7,699 nucleotides of DNA from Deltaproteobacteria bacterium RBG_13_61_14. Lineage in GTDB: Bacteria > RBG-13-61-14. The stretch spans positions 8,243-15,941 of the forward strand of contig MGQK01000127.1 in assembly GCA_001797815.1 (NCBI GenBank), written 5' to 3'. The notes beneath the pieces were generated by a model. The model was given only the letters and a program-made list of their open reading frames with translations, searched no databases and was not told where the DNA came from. The number at the start of each line of letters is the position of its first letter. Position 1 is the first letter of the stretch. The position numbers and the translations under genes are program-made. Below are positions 1,626-7,699 of this stretch, in pieces.

Positions 1626-2729
1626 ATGACCATGTATTTGGTCTTTGCCGCGATTGTAGTGGCGGTCCTGGTGATTTTCGGGATCCCGGCCATCACCCGC
1701 CAGGTGAAAATCCCCCGCGTCCTGCGCTGGGTGGAGCTGGAAGACGCCGAGCTTACCGAGGCCGCCGTCCATCTCTTCGCGGACACCGATGCCGCGGCCC
1801 AGGAGCTGGGCTTCCGCCCGCTCGAGAATTTCACAGTGCCCGGCCTGGCCCGCGGCAACGAGAACCGGCTTTACCTGAACCCGGAAGAAGCGACCTCCAT
1901 GATCGCCACCGTGCTCGCGGCCGGCAAAGAGCGATCGCGGATGCTGGAATTCAGCACTGGATTCGAGGACGGGGTGGAACTGTGCACCTCCAACGCCCAG
2001 GTGGGCGGGCTTTTCGAGCAACCGGACTGGCACCAGGTCCGGCAACTCCCTGCCCTCACCGACCTGGCGCGCCTGCACCAGGCTCATCGCCGGCGGGTGT
2101 CCGAGCGAATGGCGCAAGGAGCAAGTTCTCGCCCCGTCCCGGAAAACCGGCTCCTGGATGAGATGCTTCGGAGCCAGGCGCGGCAGATCGAATACCAGGT
2201 GGAACAGGGCTTGTTCCGGTTGGATGAGGAAGCCGGCATGTATGTGGCCACGCCCCGGATCGCGCTCCGCGGCATCCTCAACTTCCTCAACCCGCTCGCC
2301 GACAATTTCACCTTCAGCCGCTTCGCCCTCGGCTTCGGCCTGGGTCTGGCCCTGGCCCTGGCCGCGATCCTCCTGGCCCAGCCGCTCGGCTTGCCGGAAT
2401 TCCTCCGCCAGGTATTCCCCAATGCGACCGCCGGCCAAATCACCTTCCTGCTCTATTGCCCCGGCTTTGTCCTGGCCGGGCTGGTGGTCGGCTGGCAGTT
2501 CCGCGAAAAAGGGTTTCTCTGGGGGTTCCTGATCAGCCTGCCCGGGCTGATCCTGCTCCCGGCATCGGTGAGTCAGCCCATTTTTTACTCGATCATCGCC
2601 GCCTGGTCCGGCCAGACCATGAACCGCCTCTGCCAGGCCCGCGAGTCGGGCCTGAGCTCGCCCCAGGCCTTCACCGGCTTGATCGTGCTCGCCGTCCTGG
2701 TGGTCGTCGGCTATTATTATTCGACTTAA
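1626..2729 (+). CDS. Uncharacterised polytopic membrane protein
   Basis: I do not recognise a named family. The 367-aa product has an N-terminal membrane helix (about 3-21), then a soluble domain of about 200 residues. This contains an LEFSTGFEDGVELCTSN stretch (108-123), a pattern I associate with unannotated planctomycete-type membrane proteins. Four hydrophobic segments follow (about 233-251, 273-291, 297-327, 347-365), the last almost at the C-terminus. The start at 1626 is one base after the rlmN stop, with AAGGG at 1616-1620 inside rlmN as ribosome binding site; M3 at 1632 is an alternative. Codon use equals that of rlmN. The final codons (VVVGYYYST) are repeated at 7518-7545, which suggests that an element was inserted at the end of this gene. 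No catalytic motif is evident and function is unknown. Confidence 0.85.
   Translation: MTMYLVFAAIVVAVLVIFGIPAITRQVKIPRVLRWVELEDAELTEAAVHLFADTDAAAQELGFRPLENFTVPGLARGNENRLYLNPEEATSMIATVLAAGKERSRMLEFSTGFEDGVELCTSNAQVGGLFEQPDWHQVRQLPALTDLARLHQAHRRRVSERMAQGASSRPVPENRLLDEMLRSQARQIEYQVEQGLFRLDEEAGMYVATPRIALRGILNFLNPLADNFTFSRFALGFGLGLALALAAILLAQPLGLPEFLRQVFPNATAGQITFLLYCPGFVLAGLVVGWQFREKGFLWGFLISLPGLILLPASVSQPIFYSIIAAWSGQTMNRLCQARESGLSSPQAFTGLIVLAVLVVVGYYYST
2701..2728 (+). repeat. Left copy of a long direct repeat (attachment-site-like), within a gene end
   Basis: The bases 2701-2725 match 7518-7542 at 24 of 25 positions in direct orientation. The next bases still agree in sense (ACT TAA here, ACC TGA there). 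This copy is the live 3' end of the membrane protein gene. The pair brackets the AT-rich insert and all the repeat-rich DNA around it. No integrase gene is present between the copies, so the att reading is an inference. A recombination or duplication event without an integrase is the alternative. Confidence 0.6.
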
Positions 2730-2771
2730 AATCACCCCTCGAAAAGCCGGGGCCTGCTTTCCATCAGGTTA

Positions 2772-2806
2772 AACCTTTAACCGTCAACTGAAACCGGGAA
2801 CCAATT
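2772..2806. repeat. Heptanucleotide-period array (ACC-type)
   Basis: Five successive 7-nt units share an AAC or ACC beginning (AACCTTT, AACCGTC, ACCAATT and others). Overlapping its left edge is a 7-bp inverted repeat, GGTTAAA (2767-2773) and TTTAACC (2776-2782). The final ACCAAT word also ends the array at 2926-2967. Both are followed by a pyrimidine run and a TTGAC promoter element. Confidence 0.5.
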
Positions 2807-2812
2807 TTCCCC

Positions 2813-2842
2813 TTGACATTCCTTCCGCAACCATGCTACAAG
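2813..2842 (+). promoter_or_regulatory. Possible sigma70-type promoter (upstream copy)
   Basis: A perfect TTGACA (2813-2818) is followed after 18 bases by TACAAG (2837-2842), a 4/6 match to the -10 box. No ribosome binding site or gene start follows closely; the next array begins within 15 bases. It may be the relic of a promoter for a lost gene, or a duplicate of the better promoter at 2979-3008. Confidence 0.35.
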
Positions 2843-2854
2843 GTCATCAAGAGT

Positions 2855-2889
2855 GGTCGGTGCCGGTGCCTGGTTCACGGTCCAACAGC
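2855..2889. repeat. Heptanucleotide-period array (CCTGGTT/CACGGTC type)
   Basis: Units GCCGGTG, CCTGGTT and CACGGTC follow each other with an exact 7-base step. The same words occur, in a different order, in the array at 6243-6298, about 3.4 kb away on the other side of the ATPase gene. The two arrays therefore belong to one repeat family. Confidence 0.5.
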
Positions 2890-2925
2890 AACCAAAGCCA
2901 GCCTGGCCCAGGCCAATGCTTTGTT

Positions 2926-2967
2926 ACTTTGCACTTTGCACTAGGAACCAGAAACCAGGAACCAATC
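2926..2967. repeat. Heptanucleotide-period array of six units
   Basis: Six contiguous 7-nt units all begin with AC: ACTTTGC twice, then ACTAGGA, ACCAGAA, ACCAGGA and ACCAATC. The unit sequence drifts along the array while the 7-base step is kept. It is directly followed by a T-rich run and the promoter at 2979-3008. Confidence 0.6.
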
Positions 2968-2978
2968 TTACTTTTTTC

Positions 2979-3022
2979 TTGACTTTCCCCAAGCTCCCGG
3001 CCTAGAATAGCTCCAAAGGAGG
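2979..3022 (+). promoter_or_regulatory. Sigma70-type promoter with downstream Shine-Dalgarno, leading to no convincing gene
   Basis: TTGACT (2979-2984) and TAGAAT (3003-3008) are each 5/6 matches, 18 bases apart. A strong AAAGGAGG follows at 3015-3022. The first ATG (3038) is 15 bases further and opens an 83-codon frame to 3289. That frame runs through a hairpin, a REP-like repeat and a palindrome, so I do not call it a gene. The signals look like the front end of a gene whose body was replaced. The promoter could still feed the ATPase gene, about 440 bases downstream, as there is no terminator between them. Confidence 0.5.
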
Positions 3023-3072
3023 CCGAAGCGCGCGGAGATGAAGACCTCGGAAATCATCCCTCCAATTTGTAG

Positions 3073-3101
3073 CCCATCCCTCCCGTTTCCAGGAGGGTGG
3101 G
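3073..3101. repeat. Strong hairpin
   Basis: CCCTCC (3078-3083) pairs with GGAGGG (3092-3097) around an 8-base loop. The stem continues as CCCA (3073-3076) with TGGG (3098-3101) past a single bulged T. There is no T-run on either strand after it, so it is not an obvious intrinsic terminator. It is probably a small palindromic repeat of the intergenic repeat set. Confidence 0.55.
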
Positions 3102-3111
3102 TCCGTGGCAT

Positions 3112-3162
3112 CCCTCGATTGCACTCGGGACAGGCCCTGACACCATGCCACCTTGACACCAT
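3112..3162. repeat. REP-like intergenic repeat fragment with internal direct repeat
   Basis: The stretch carrying CTCGATTGCACTCGGGACAG resembles a family of GC-rich repeats common between genes of many environmental bacteria (from memory; no search run). It is followed by TGACACCAT twice, 16 bases apart. Overlapping frames read through it, but only as repeat translation. Confidence 0.4.
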
Positions 3163-3185
3163 CCAACTGCACTATAGCCAGAAAT

Positions 3186-3201
3186 GGGAATTGCAATTCC
3201 C
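3186..3201. promoter_or_regulatory. Perfect 16-bp palindrome, candidate operator
   Basis: GGGAATTGCAATTCCC is its own reverse complement with no spacer. It lies 41 bases upstream of a TTGACA element and about 65 bases before the first AT-rich ORF. It sits at the point where base composition drops from GC-rich to AT-rich. A dimeric repressor site for the insert genes is plausible but unproven. No regulator gene is in the window. Confidence 0.4.
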
Positions 3202-3241
3202 GCTCTCATTTTTCTCGGTAAATTATCCAAAACCTGTATTT

Positions 3242-3271
3242 TTGACATCAATTGAAGGAATTAAGTATGGT
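3242..3271 (+). promoter_or_regulatory. Possible promoter of the ATPase gene
   Basis: A perfect TTGACA (3242-3247) precedes TATGGT (3266-3271, 4/6 match) by 18 bases. Transcription would start near 3278, leaving a leader of about 185 bases before the chosen ATPase start. This start would lie inside the small ORF at 3267, so the promoter and that ORF exclude each other unless the ORF is read from an upstream promoter such as 2979-3008. Confidence 0.3.
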
Positions 3272-3383
3272 GTCCCCAGAATTCTGTGAGGAATTTCTGA
3301 AAGTCAATAATATGATAAGTAATAATCTTGGGCAATATATAGATTTAATTGGTGATATTGGGATAGGTAATAATAAGAATTAG
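3267..3383 (+). CDS. Possible 38-aa small protein upstream of the ATPase gene
   Basis: I do not recognise this ORF. It begins with ATG seven bases after a good Shine-Dalgarno core (AAGGA, 3255-3259) and encodes 38 residues, starting MVSPEFCEEFLKVNN and ending in an Asn/Gly-rich tail. It shares the AT-rich composition of the ATPase gene and ends about 80 bases before it on the same strand. It could be a leader peptide, a small partner protein, or the remnant of a longer gene. Neither of the other frames continues open past its TAG. Only the ribosome binding site and spacing support it. Confidence 0.35.
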   Translation: MVSPEFCEEFLKVNNMISNNLGQYIDLIGDIGIGNNKN

Positions 3384-3462
3384 GTAGTATTGCAATCTAG
3401 AACATCACTTCAAAACCCTGCTTCATGAATTGATGAGCGGGGAAAGAAGGGTGGTACTTTCT

Positions 3463-6126
3463 ATGAAAGCGAGCAAAAGTGCCTCAAATGAAAGTGTTGA
3501 GAGTTGGCTATCTAGCAAGCCTTTCTGGGAACAATATGTCTGGAAGCTCAACCTCGAAAAGGACTCGCTAACTGATAAGGATGTTGAAAAATGCTACCAA
3601 TATCTCTGTGAACACCTTGGCCTTATTGATAAACTACCGGATGAAAAACCTGAAATATCATTCAAAAATGTTTTGGCGGCAATCCCAGATACACCTGCTC
3701 CAATTGATAAATTGAGTCTCGTTGAGGTCAAGGATATTTCCGACGTAAACGCTCTATCACCAGACTGCTCCATTAAACTCGGCCCTAATCTTACCTTGGT
3801 ATATGGAGGCACTGGTAGCGGCAAGAGCGGCATTGGCCGCCTTCTATGCAATGCCTGCTTCTCGCGTGGAGAGCGCGATATCCTTCCGAACGTGAGGCAA
3901 TCAACACCAACTGGCTCTGAACCCAAAGCAACATTCGTAATTCGGGACGCTACAGGAGCAGCCAGGGAAATCAATTATAAGTTGGGAGAGAACATTGACG
4001 ACCTCAAACGATTCTCGGTCTTTGATTCGGAAAGCGTTTTGATCCATCTCGACCAGTCAAATCAAGTTCACTTTACTCCGGCGCAGATCCAGATATTCGA
4101 CAAGGTCGCCGACACCATTAACAAGCTTGAGGGAAAGCTTGGCAATGATAAGAATGCCAGAAGAAAGGGCAATCCATTTCAGACAATGTTCCTTGATGGG
4201 GTCGACTCTGAGACTGCGGAATTTTGCAGGGCCATTTCCGCATCAACAAAGGCAGAGGATTTTTTAAAACACGCTAATTTTAATCCCGAAACCGATGATC
4301 TTGCCATAGCCAAGTTGCAGAAGAAGATAGATGAGAAGAAAAGGCTTGATATTCCCAAGAAGAAAGCCCAGCTCGCCGCCGACAGAAAAACCCTAGGGGC
4401 ATTAAAAGCATCCCTCCAAAATGTAATTGATCATTTCACCGATGATGAATCGCAGGAAATTAACCAACTCATCAAGGACATACTTGAGAGAAAGAAGATC
4501 ATTCGAGGTTTAAGCGTCAAGACTTTTGACGATGGAATTTTCAAGACGATCGGGAGTCATGAATGGAAAGCTTTGATAAGCGCGGCAAAAGAGCTATATG
4601 AACGGGAAAAGGCGGCAAATGAAGGCAAGGAACCGGAGCACTGCCTGCTTTGTCATCAGAAACTAACGGGGGAAGCAAAATCGCTTTTCCAGAAATACTG
4701 GGAGTTTCTCGAAAGCAAGGCGGAGAGCGAACTCAGACAGTTGACGCGCCAGCAATCTTCTTTATTGCAGGATTTGCAATCACTCAAGACAACTTATCCA
4801 AAATTCTTGGACACTGATGCAGGAATCAAACAGCTTCATGAAGAAGATTCAAAATACTTGGAGCAATTAAAGTCGGAATTTAATACGCTTGAGGGCATTC
4901 TTGATGAATGGATCACAAACATCGGCCAGCTGAAAGCCGTCTCAAGAAGCGAAGACCCGGAAATTGATCTTGAAAGAATCGAATCTATCATCGCCGCTAA
5001 GAATGAGGAAGAATCCAAGCTTATTGACCCCTCAGAGGAAATCCGCAAACTTACAGCCAAACAAAATGCGCTCAAGCACAAGAAGGAGGCTACTACGGTC
5101 AAAGATGCCGCTTTGGAATACATTGCTTATCTTCAATGGGACTCAAAAGCAGACCAGGTGAATTTTGCCGGCATCAAACAGGCCACGACAAGGAAGCGGA
5201 CTGAAGCTTTCTCAATAGCGGTTGCCAAGAATTACCAAGAAATGTTCAATCAGGAGCTTTCTAAACTCGATTGCGATTTTAATTTGGTAATGAGAACAAG
5301 TGGAGTTTATGGCAGTACAGTCAAAGAATACCGACTCGATTTTGCGCAGAGTTATAGCCCAAGCCAGATATTAAGCGAAGGTGAACAAAACGCTTGTTCA
5401 CTCGCCGATTTTTTAACTGAAGCGCAACTCGATAAAAATAATTGCGGTATCGCTTTTGATGATCCCGTCTCTTCACTCGATCATGAGCGAAAGGATAAAA
5501 TTGCTAAAAGACTGGCTGAAGAGGCTGGCCAGCGTCAAGTCGTGGTCCTCACCCATGATATCGTCTTCATGAGCCAGCTTGTTAGGCATGCTGGTGATAA
5601 TGATATACCGACCATCGCTCATTGGATGAGAACTGTTAGTGGCATTCCCGGATGCATAGAGGAAGAGTCGAGTCCCAAATTATCTACTCTGAAAAAACTT
5701 AAAAACGATTCACAGGAGGCTGTCAGAAATTATGATTCACTTGGTCCCAAAGAACAAGAAATAAAACTTGGCGTCGCCCTAGACTATCTCCGGAGTGCTT
5801 GTGAATCTCTTATTGAAGAATTGCTGTTTGCGAAAACCATTCAAAGATATGACGATCATATAAAGGTTCAGAGTCTTGAAGAAGCCATCTTCGATCAAGA
5901 TTTAGCCCTCAAGATTGTTGATTTGCATGGCAGAATCTCTGAAATGATACTTGCTCATAACCGGAGCGATCTAAAACGAGAGAATCCATTTGATATTAAA
6001 GACCTCAAGACGTTGCGTAATGAATTTAATGAATTAGAACGCGACCTAAATGATGCAAAAAAGAGCGCCCTTATTGAAAGAGCTAAACGCAAAGAAGAAA
6101 AGAAGTCTAAGCAAAAAGGATGGTAA
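3463..6126 (+). CDS. RloC/PrrC-like zinc-hook ABC ATPase, candidate anticodon-nuclease defence protein
   Basis: Positions count from M1 at 3463 (887 aa). An SMC/Rad50-like ATPase is split by a long insert. Walker A is YGGTGSGKS (114-122, K121), followed by an ILPNV block (140-144). Coiled coil flanks a CLLC zinc hook (C394, C397). Then come the ABC signature LSEGEQ (637-642), Walker B FDDP with D-loop SSLD (665-673), and the H-loop THD (H698). The family uses DDP where most ABC ATPases have DE. The roughly 190-residue C-terminal part contains LRSACE (R777, E781) and LAHNRSD (H832). This resembles the Arg-Glu-His set of the PrrC/RloC tRNA anticodon nucleases, but spacing differs from PrrC and catalysis is inferred. 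RloC proteins typically lie in type I restriction loci, and a likely HsdR scar follows. ATG 3463 is preferred for GGTGG at 3450-3454; in-frame TTG 3430 and ATG 3433 lack a ribosome binding site. The gene is markedly AT-rich, suggesting transfer. It is full length. Confidence 0.85.
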   Translation: MKASKSASNESVESWLSSKPFWEQYVWKLNLEKDSLTDKDVEKCYQYLCEHLGLIDKLPDEKPEISFKNVLAAIPDTPAPIDKLSLVEVKDISDVNALSPDCSIKLGPNLTLVYGGTGSGKSGIGRLLCNACFSRGERDILPNVRQSTPTGSEPKATFVIRDATGAAREINYKLGENIDDLKRFSVFDSESVLIHLDQSNQVHFTPAQIQIFDKVADTINKLEGKLGNDKNARRKGNPFQTMFLDGVDSETAEFCRAISASTKAEDFLKHANFNPETDDLAIAKLQKKIDEKKRLDIPKKKAQLAADRKTLGALKASLQNVIDHFTDDESQEINQLIKDILERKKIIRGLSVKTFDDGIFKTIGSHEWKALISAAKELYEREKAANEGKEPEHCLLCHQKLTGEAKSLFQKYWEFLESKAESELRQLTRQQSSLLQDLQSLKTTYPKFLDTDAGIKQLHEEDSKYLEQLKSEFNTLEGILDEWITNIGQLKAVSRSEDPEIDLERIESIIAAKNEEESKLIDPSEEIRKLTAKQNALKHKKEATTVKDAALEYIAYLQWDSKADQVNFAGIKQATTRKRTEAFSIAVAKNYQEMFNQELSKLDCDFNLVMRTSGVYGSTVKEYRLDFAQSYSPSQILSEGEQNACSLADFLTEAQLDKNNCGIAFDDPVSSLDHERKDKIAKRLAEEAGQRQVVVLTHDIVFMSQLVRHAGDNDIPTIAHWMRTVSGIPGCIEEESSPKLSTLKKLKNDSQEAVRNYDSLGPKEQEIKLGVALDYLRSACESLIEELLFAKTIQRYDDHIKVQSLEEAIFDQDLALKIVDLHGRISEMILAHNRSDLKRENPFDIKDLKTLRNEFNELERDLNDAKKSALIERAKRKEEKKSKQKGW

Positions 6127-6142
6127 ATAAACATTAACTAAC

Positions 6143-6247
6143 ATGAAACCAACAGAATCAAAATCAGTCCAACAGCGTATTATCAAGTACGCCATTGAAG
6201 CCGGTTGGGATCGGGATCAGAGCTTCTCTTTACACTTAAGGGAGTGA
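6143..6247 (+). pseudogene. Probable N-terminal remnant of a type I restriction endonuclease subunit R (HsdR)
   Basis: This 34-codon frame starts 16 bases after the ATPase stop. Its N-terminus contains VQQRIIKYAIEAGW, the pattern VQxRILxYAxExGW that I know from the beginning of one large class of HsdR proteins (usually around 1000 residues). The similarity stops at the GWD, and the frame ends with TGA inside the first unit of the heptad array at 6243. No Shine-Dalgarno sequence is visible. An hsdR directly behind an RloC-like gene is a familiar order in type I restriction loci. I infer that the R subunit was deleted and replaced by repeats. The match is short and from memory; an unrelated micro-ORF is the alternative. 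Confidence 0.45.
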
Positions 6248-6298
6248 ACAGTAAGCAGTTCCTGGTTCCTGGTTCACGGTGCCGGGTTCCTGGTTCAT
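6243..6298. repeat. Heptanucleotide-period array of eight units
   Basis: Eight contiguous 7-nt units all begin AGT or GGT: AGTGAAC and AGTAAGC first, then GGTTCCT twice, GGTTCAC, GGTGCCG and GGTTCAT. Its first unit supplies the stop codon of the HsdR-like remnant, so this array marks the right edge of the AT-rich insert. Confidence 0.65.
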
Positions 6299-6317
6299 CT
6301 CAGGCTTTGAACGGGAA

Positions 6318-6482
6318 AATCTGCCCCTCGACAGGCTCGGGGTGGTGAGCGAGGCCGAACCGCGAAATCTGTCCTCGACCCCGCCCTCGACCCTGAGAGG
6401 CTCGGGCCGAAGGGAGCTTGCCGAGGGGCGTAATCTGCCCTTCGACAAGCTCAGGGCGGTGAGGGAATCGAACCGCGGATCC
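6318..6482. repeat. Pair of REP-like repeats
   Basis: Two roughly 50-base copies lie in direct orientation at 6318-6369 and 6432-6482. Both read AATCTGCCC, then TCGACA, GCTC, GGTGAG and GAACCGCG in the same order. The core is a short inverted repeat (CCCTTCGACAAGCTCAGGG in the right copy). Words such as CCCTCGACC and GGCTCGGG recur between them. This core is widespread between genes of environmental bacteria. Open frames across it, on both strands, are repeat translation rather than genes. Confidence 0.55.
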
Positions 6483-6494
6483 TCCTCTTCTTCT

Positions 6495-6557
6495 CTTCAC
6501 CTTGACACCTTCAAGCAGTGAACAGTGCACGGTGCATCAAGAGGCTTTAGGCATTAG
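6495..6557. repeat. Heptanucleotide-period array of nine units
   Basis: Nine consecutive 7-nt steps change gradually in sequence: CTTCACC, TTGACAC and CTTCAAG, then CAGTGAA, CAGTGCA and CGGTGCA, and finally GCTTTAG and GCATTAG. The last words match the array on the far side of the cloverleaf element (from 6757), so that element sits inside a run of these repeats. Confidence 0.6.
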
Positions 6558-6567
6558 GGGCTTAGTG

Positions 6568-6756
6568 CTTCGATTCGCAAATACAATGACGTATTTATTT
6601 TATCGCAAAGGCTTATTTGCTTACTCAGCCCTCGGCCGTGAGCTCCATTCGGCCCGAGCTCATGGCCGAGGGCGGGCCGAACGGCACTAAGTCCTGAGTA
6701 AATAAGTTCGACTTCGGCGAGCTCAGCCGAGCCGTCATCGAACTTATGAATCGAAG
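6568..6756. other. 189-bp cloverleaf-forming inverted-repeat element
   Basis: Nested stems meet almost without spacers. The closing stem is CTTCGATTC (6568-6576) with GAATCGAAG (6748-6756). Arm 1 is GCAAATA (6577-6583) with TATTTGC (6614-6620). Arm 2 is TTACTCAG (6621-6628) with CTGAGTAA (6694-6701), capped by a 17-bp hairpin (6629-6645 with 6656-6672, one G-T pair). Arm 3 is TAAGTTCGA (6703-6711) with TCGAACTTA (6738-6746), with an inner TCGGC/GCCGA. Only single bases (6702, 6747) separate the arms. The bulge at 6673-6693 can instead pair with either flank. There is no coding potential and no T-run. It could be a miniature inverted-repeat element, a structured RNA, or a recombination site. 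Confidence 0.65.
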
Positions 6757-6805
6757 GACTTAGGCTTTAGTCTAAAGCCTAAAGTCTAATGTCTAATGTC
6801 TCAAG
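6757..6805. repeat. Heptanucleotide-period array containing a 23-bp palindrome
   Basis: Seven 7-nt units run without a gap from the edge of the cloverleaf: GACTTAG, GCTTTAG, TCTAAAG, CCTAAAG, TCTAATG twice and TCTCAAG. The first four are mutually complementary, giving an 11-bp perfect inverted repeat around a single T (6760-6782). The array thus switches orientation at 6771. Confidence 0.65.
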
Positions 6806-6817
6806 CCTTCGGAACCT

Positions 6818-6901
6818 GGGGTGGTTGCCGCGCAGGATGGGGTGGTTGCTGAGCAGAATGGGGTGGTTGCTACGCAGAATGGGGTGGTTGGCGTGCAGAA
6901 T
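6818..6901. repeat. Four tandem 21-bp repeats with a variable 4-nt core
   Basis: The units start at 6818, 6839, 6860 and 6881. Each is GGGGTGGTTG, four free bases, then GCAGAAT (GCAGGAT in the first). The free bases are CCGC, CTGA, CTAC and GCGT, while the other 17 positions differ only once over all units. A partial fifth unit follows. On the minus strand the array is open and would read as a seven-residue repeat (TTPFCVA-like), but no gene context supports translation. Confidence 0.75.
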
Positions 6902-6920
6902 GGGGGGACGTTTGAAGAGA

Positions 6921-6969
6921 GTAGGTAGTAGGTCGTAGGTAGTAGGTCGGGGGTAGTAGGTCGGGGAAG
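6921..6969. repeat. Heptanucleotide-period array (GTAGGTA/GTAGGTC)
   Basis: Seven units run here, with GTAGGTA and GTAGGTC alternating as a 14-base super-unit before degenerating to G-rich units. It matches the array at the left end of the window (2-29), 6.9 kb away. Confidence 0.65.
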
Positions 6970-7150
6970 AGAAGAAGAAGAAACCAAGAGAAATTTCGCC
7001 AGGTTAAGTTGGTTCCCGGGTAGTCGGAGAGGAGGATCTGGGGATTTTGAAGAGCCGGGGCCGGGAATGGGGGTGCATCTTGGGGGCGCTGGGACAAAAA
7101 GGTCTTGAGAAATCGCCGGGTTATCATTTCGAATAATTGTTTGATTTCAG
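6970..7150. other. Intergenic stretch without recognised content
   Basis: I see no gene, RNA or clear repeat here. The stretch is purine-rich on the plus strand up to about 7100 and then becomes AT-rich. Open frames across it lack ribosome binding sites and family resemblance. Confidence 0.4.
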
Positions 7151-7192
7151 CCCTCATCCTTCACCCTTCAACCTTCTTTTTCACTCCCCCCT
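7151..7192. repeat. Heptanucleotide-period array (CCTTCAN type)
   Basis: Six 7-nt units (CCCTCAT, CCTTCAC, CCTTCAA and CCTTCTT, then two degenerate ones) lie just before a TATATATG stretch. The step is exact; the unit differs from all the other arrays. Confidence 0.5.
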
Positions 7193-7220
7193 ATATATGT
7201 ATGTTTGTTGCAGTTCCAGG

Positions 7221-7517
7221 CCACCTGCCGGTGGAGGAAACTGGGCTTTTTCCCGTTGGTCAAAAGCAGAAGTCTAAGAGCCACCAGGGGCCACCTGCCG
7301 GTGGAGGGAATATGGCCCGCTCCCGCTTCGGCCTGTCTTCGACCCTGTATTCGACCCTGAGGCTCATACCCGAAGGGAGGCTCAGACCCGAAGGGAGCCC
7401 TTGGTCGAAGGACCGCTGGTCGCAGGCTAAAATCATCAGGCCACCAGGGGCCGGCTGCCGCCGCCAGGGATGATCCCTGGACCGGCTGCCGCCGGTTGAA
7501 ATATGGCCCGCTCCCTT
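7221..7517. repeat. Cluster of small palindromic repeats with duplicated unit
   Basis: CCACCTGCCGGTGG occurs at 7221-7234 and 7291-7304. ACCGGCTGCCGCCGGT (7481-7496) keeps the TGCC loop while both stem arms have changed together. CCAGGGATGATCCCTGG (7464-7480) is another perfect hairpin. A larger unit starts with GCCACCAGGGGCC (7280 and 7440) and ends with AATATGGCCCGCTCCC (7309-7324 and 7500-7515); the second copy is longer by an extra hairpin. No gene is supported here. Confidence 0.6.
7361..7396. repeat. 18-bp tandem duplication
   Basis: GGCTCATACCCGAAGGGA (7361-7378) is followed directly by the same sequence with one change (G for T at the seventh base, 7379-7396). A shorter 12-base duplication of TTCGACCCTG words lies just before it. 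Confidence 0.6.
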
Positions 7518-7545
7518 TGGTCGTGGGCTATTATTATTCGACCTG
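7518..7545 (+). repeat. Right copy of the long direct repeat: orphan gene end
   Basis: Twenty-four of 25 bases match 2701-2725. In the matching frame (from 7517) it reads LVVGYYYST and then TGA, the C-terminus of the membrane protein with different codons (GTG for GTC, ACC for ACT) and a different stop. It has no open frame leading into it. It overlaps the stop region of the minus-strand TPR gene (stop at 7534-7536). This looks like the original convergent gene junction. Confidence 0.6.
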
Positions 7546-7699
7546 AGACCCGCCCCGGCTTTTGCGGATCTGCTCCAGGGCGGCCCGGACCTCGGGCTGG
7601 TCCGGATTGAGCCGCAGCGACTCCTCCAACTCCCGCTTCCCCTCCTCGATCCGGCCCAGGTGCAAGTAGAGCGCGCCCAGGCTTCCGCGCAAATCCGCC
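7534..7699 (-). CDS. TPR-repeat protein, C-terminal part (5' end outside window)
   Basis: Read on the minus strand from the window edge, 54 codons lead to a TAA at 7536-7534. The sequence contains one complete tetratricopeptide repeat: LGALYLHLGRIEEGKRELEE, then SLRLNPDQPEV, with the usual small, aromatic and Pro positions. A short charged tail ends in SQVE. TPR units form helix-pair scaffolds for protein-protein contacts, so the specific partner cannot be told. GC-rich codon use matches ndk and rlmN, so it belongs to the backbone genome. It is convergent with the plus-strand genes, and its stop overlaps the right direct-repeat copy. The truncation is due to the window end. Confidence 0.8.
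   Translation of the reverse strand, partial: ADLRGSLGALYLHLGRIEEGKRELEESLRLNPDQPEVRAALEQIRKSRGGSQVE

Follow-up and report, generated by a model that had tools for sequence, protein, structure and literature searches.

Insertion at the 3′ ends of protein-coding genes is already well known, the SCC elements in rlmH being integrative elements that occupy a site of this kind. Of 73 streptococcal tyrosine-integrase elements, 30 (approximately 40%) occupy the 3′ end of a housekeeping protein gene, and the repeats of site-specific streptococcal elements range from 12 to 54 bp (PMC4701971); the preliminary description of the locus considered here was therefore mistaken in regarding a protein-gene 3′ end as an unusual target. 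The locus has a duplicated gene end on either side of an ATPase gene. We propose, with a probability of about 0.5, that a single illegitimate rearrangement left it as a scar, duplicating an old junction between a membrane protein gene, designated gene M, and a TPR-protein gene. It should be recognized that the 25-bp gene-end repeat also looks just like an att site, which counts against this proposal.

The window, which is the whole stretch of DNA that was analysed (7,699 nt), stops at the end of its contig (15,941 bp), which leaves 157 bp after the right repeat copy, and comes from an assembly of 4.74 Mb in 132 contigs. About 21% of the genome (0.98 Mb) was read base by base and the remainder was covered by searches alone; the relatives compared are two genomes of the same order, which is represented by three genomes in the collection. 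Along the window the order is ndk, rlmN, gene M, a region of 4.8 kb, and the 3′ end of the TPR gene on the minus strand, and an Rfam search of the window gave no match. The sequence at 2701–2725 (TGGTCGTCGGCTATTATTATTCGAC) recurs in the same orientation at 7518–7542 (TGGTCGTGGGCTATTATTATTCGAC) with 24 of 25 bases identical, and both copies encode VVGYYYST followed by a stop, through ACT TAA on the left and ACC TGA on the right, so that sequence comparison confirms the preliminary description on these points. When up to two mismatches are allowed, the 17-base core (GGCTATTATTATTCGAC) is matched in the whole 4.7-Mb genome by these two copies alone; the suggestion that other inserts might be bounded by the same word found nothing to sustain it in this search. 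No 24/25 direct pair was present in 300 third-order Markov copies of the window (0/300), and a chance origin of the repeat is unlikely.

Gene M (1626–2729, plus strand) follows rlmN and encodes a membrane protein of 367 amino acids, and the left copy (2701–2729, plus strand) is its native 3′ end, with the stop codon TAA. The C-terminal VVGYYYST aligns with the native C-termini of relatives (IIGWMM.. and VIGWLI..), and it is the correspondence of VVGY with the conserved IIGW and VIGW that identifies the left copy as the native gene end; a replacement end is therefore not needed. The membrane proteins of the two order-level relatives are 26–30% identical to the gene M product. In one of them (G001) the contig stops after gene M, and in the other (G002) a different gene lies downstream and there is no TPR gene at that place; a search of the genome-contig collection for relatives of gene M found none.

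The right copy (7518–7545, plus strand) is a composite in which the end of a dispersed repeat is fused to TATTATTATTCGACCTGA. Its first 11–12 bases (TGGTCGTGGGCT) are the end of an intergenic repeat that is present at 64 places in the genome and that occurs elsewhere without the gene M end; these bases were thus not copied from the gene end. The end module of the dispersed repeats (CCGGCTGCCGCCGGTTGAAATATGGCCCGCTCCCTTTGGTCGTGGGC; 7482–7529, plus strand), of the form CCGGCTGCCGCCGGTTGAAATATGGCCCGCTCCC(G/T)TTGGTCG(C/T)GGGC, overlaps the first 11–12 bases of the right copy and so continues into it. The 44 bp ending in TTGGTCG(C/T)GGGC are 95% identical at an unrelated locus on contig 32, where the module is followed by other sequence, without TATTATTATTCGAC, and exact matches to CTGGTCGTGGGCT and to TGGTCGTGGGCT, the 12 bases with which the right copy begins, lie on contig 21. 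The gene-specific part of the right copy consequently amounts to about 14–17 bases, namely TATTATTATTCGAC plus the stop region, and, because TATTATTATT is simple sequence, the independent part of the repeat match is weakened. A gene-end direct repeat around the ATPase insert is present, although half of its right copy has another source. The preliminary description had regarded an ordinary dispersed repeat as incompatible with a mobile element; the 5′ half of the right copy, which is found at many unrelated sites, comes close to being one. At the fusion itself, TGGTCGTCGGCT of gene M agrees with the dispersed-repeat end at 11 of 12 bases, which is the relationship between an incoming end and its target that a microhomology junction would show. 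As half of the right copy is genome-wide repeat DNA, the structure looks more like a one-off rearrangement scar than the trace of a mobile element.

The ATPase gene (3463–6126, plus strand) is the sole substantial gene within the 4.8 kb between the copies. It encodes an AAA/SMC-like protein of 887 amino acids that matches the PADLOC PDC-S06 profile over its full length (1.5e-129; residues 20–869 of 898, profile positions 4–853 of 858), and it lies in an AT-rich, foreign-looking block (about 3161–6240) with a GC content of 0.35–0.44, as compared with 0.64 in host genes; the GC3 of the ATPase gene is 0.44 versus 0.83–0.87 for its neighbours. It is present in a single copy in the genome and was not found when searched for in the two order-level relatives. 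The nearest relative found, from a Blastocatellia MAG, is 61% identical, and distant relatives are carried on plasmids, one of them adjoining genes for a DNA methyltransferase and a helicase. The gene is an acquired candidate defence gene. A frame of 34 amino acids (6143–6247, MKPTESKSVQQRIIKYAIEAGWDRDQSFSLHLRE) that follows it is possibly a truncated gene; its assignment as the beginning of a subunit of a type I restriction system was dropped when library and plasmid searches gave no support.

On both sides of this block the sequence is native. Repeat phrases (GGAACCAG...) together with a promoter-like TTGACT-TAGAAT block (2940–3008) recur elsewhere in the genome, the block also being present at the start of contig 44, and a REP-like word, AATTAAGTATGGTGTCCCC (3258–3276, plus strand), is found at 76 places, as compared with 0 for a control pattern. 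On the right, when the window was compared with roughly 1 Mb of the genome to which it belongs, most of 6258–7529 proved to consist of intergenic dispersed repeats, including a core of about 400 bp (6813–7216, plus strand); a genome-wide search with 6795–7560 gave 64 matches, among them over 20 copies of this core, whether full or partial. The left end of the core is made up of tandem units of 21 bp (TGGGGTGGTTGCYGNGCAGAA), its full copies are 77–91% identical, and it has no Rfam match. Inverted repeats of 25 nt at 2938–2962 and 6258–6282, which are 84% complementary and contain GGAACCAG... phrases that recur elsewhere in the genome, flank the AT-rich block. The two copies of the 25-bp repeat do not bound the foreign DNA itself, since the native repeats at 2940–3008, 3258–3276, and 6258–7529 intervene; with foreign composition confined to about 3161–6240, what the copies bound is native intergenic material in which a foreign gene lies.

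The window could in principle reflect a misjoin through the near-identical repeats at 6560–7216, with the right copy and TPR gene belonging elsewhere or to a strain variant. The segment 6560–6765 (206 bp) has 99% identity to a stretch of contig 21, the core at 6813–7216 is common to many loci, and the contig ends shortly after the right copy. A misjoin, however, leaves the existence of a second genomic copy of the gene M end unexplained, and the overlap of 11–12 bases at the fusion point is too short for joining by an assembler, so that we consider an artefact quite unlikely.

The genome has 19 matches to Y1_Tnp (RAYT-like), of which at least one (contig 46, 40554–40874) is flanked by AATTAAGTATGGTGTCCCC, and a resident REP/RAYT system is likely from these sequence matches. 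Another repeat-rich region (positions 1–3300 of L054, on contig 44) has the same promoter-like block and REP words, with one REP word directly upstream of an AT-rich ORF in a layout that resembles the window. Direct repeats in the 0.98 Mb that was read are, among the matches listed, mostly attributable to paralogues, tandem-repeat genes, or dispersed repeats. In one instance (L013, 18459–18480 and 19497–19518) adjacent minus-strand frames, which are possibly paralogues, appear to share a 22-base end, GGCTATATTCAGAAATAAAAGC. With respect to duplicated gene ends, no common 12-mer was found across 103 other spacers of at least 500 bp, representing about a fifth of the genome; the occurrence of one case among 103 long spacers points to an accident and not to a recurring system.

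These observations bear on the possibility that an element entered the 3′ end of gene M through the action of a site-specific recombinase, in which case the 25-bp repeats would be attL and attR and the integrase would have been lost or would act in trans. In its size, its location at the 3′ end of a gene, and the reading that it preserves, the repeat is typical of tyrosine-integrase sites; the ATPase is foreign and absent from the two order-level relatives, and there are at least eight integrase-domain genes elsewhere in the genome, which is where the preliminary description had proposed to look for an enzyme acting in trans. Yet no integrase, relaxase, or transposase was found between the copies, as had been noted before for integrases, integration leaves the dispersed-repeat half of the right copy as a coincidence, native repeats separate the foreign block from both copies, and the word bounds no other insert in the genome. 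We therefore regard site-specific integration as doubtful. The earlier proposal of an element that brought a replacement end is likewise unsupported, in view of the dispersed-repeat half, the native flanks, the lack of a recombinase, and the negative result for 103 spacers; such an element would be of a known kind if real, but is not established here. A variant in which a non-autonomous element with ends formed from dispersed intergenic repeats, mobilised in trans by a recombinase of the cell and carrying the candidate defence ATPase, targets matching gene 3′ ends is extremely improbable in our judgement.

The TPR-protein gene is represented by its 3′ end (...EQIRKSRGGSQVE-stop; 7534–7698, minus strand), its 5′ part being past the contig end, and a search for the gene elsewhere in the genome, or for an overlapping contig, gave no substantial match. 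Its stop codon (7534–7536) is located within the right copy, so that the two readings overlap there by 12 bases. A second sequence is shared by the two sides. On the left, a CCCC-TCGAAAAGCC-GGGG stem-loop (2735–2752; 18 bp, with 4-bp arms) contains the 12-base word AAAAGCCGGGGC at 2742–2753 (plus strand), and the same word is present in the TPR tail at 7552–7563 (minus strand), inverted relative to the first. It has three occurrences on both strands of the 0.98 Mb, two of which are these, 16 and 9 bases past the left and right repeat copies, respectively. Of 400,000 random pairs of 40-bp segments, 193 had a 12-mer in common when either strand was allowed, but it should be noted that the inverted word was spotted after the fact. 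When the left stem-loop is inverted, left and right align over 46 bp instead of 25 bp. Template switching at inverted repeats can leave a spacer inverted, the yeast cases having needed arms of more than 9 bp (PMC8604942), as compared with the 4-bp arms here. The presence of AAAAGCCGGGGC past both copies in opposite orientations suggests that the duplicated tract perhaps once reached the TPR tail, and gives moderate support to the descent of both sides from one M/TPR junction. An ancestral convergent junction is plausible from the right copy, and the preliminary description, which had proposed one, accords with both the TPR stop in that copy and the second shared word.

The second word is also pertinent to the view that the dispersed-repeat end and the TPR tail merely resemble the gene M end by chance. 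The independent origin of the first 11–12 bases of the right copy and the simple sequence in the rest of the match lend themselves to this explanation, but the Markov copies of the window, the restriction of the 17-base core to the two copies, and the adjacency of the second word to both of them make it very unlikely.

In the rearrangement that we favour, gene M and the TPR gene would have been convergent neighbours in the ancestor, with ends overlapping by about 12 bases. A repeat-rich intergenic segment of the same genome would have been spliced into this junction, either bringing the acquired ATPase gene along or gaining it later. The dispersed-repeat end of the segment may have paired with the gene M end, to which it is nearly identical, and synthesis or strand exchange could then have re-entered the junction upstream of the point of exit, so that copying passed twice over the gene M end and the first part of the TPR tail. 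The left-hand gene M end and the right-hand TPR tail would have been preserved by selection while the redundant parts decayed. Template switching of an MMBIR-like type and homology-facilitated illegitimate recombination would be fitting routes. The enzymology and the sequence of events, like the ancestral junction itself, are inferred from one derived sequence; such a rearrangement accounts for the microhomology and the composite right copy, for the second word and the native left end, and for the case being unique.

A convincing att-like footprint can thus form at the point where a gene end and a dispersed repeat come together, and such footprints can mislead searches for islands in the repeat-rich genomes of poorly sampled lineages. 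An empty site, if one were found, would show how foreign defence genes come to settle between host genes with the help of intergenic repeat arrays.

In its relationship to described systems, the ATPase is like the single-gene candidate defence ATPase PDC-S06 of PADLOC, and no difference from it was found in the full-length match. The locus resembles the streptococcal ICEs in rplL, rpsI, and guaA in that the 3′ end of a gene is directly repeated on either side of an insert and the gene product is preserved, but differs from 3′-end integrative elements in that the window is without a recombinase, one copy is half dispersed repeat, and native repeats adjoin the copies. It shares with MMBIR and homology-facilitated illegitimate recombination the microhomology at one junction, the duplicated flank, and a possible inversion at the other junction, although, unlike described junctions of the MMBIR type, the event is reconstructed here from a single derived sequence. 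Finally, whereas the 25-bp repeat, of which there are only two copies, is not a REP, the genome in which it lies is like those with REP/RAYT systems in its 76 REP-like words and 19 Y1_Tnp matches, and one of the REP copies is situated upstream of the ATPase gene.
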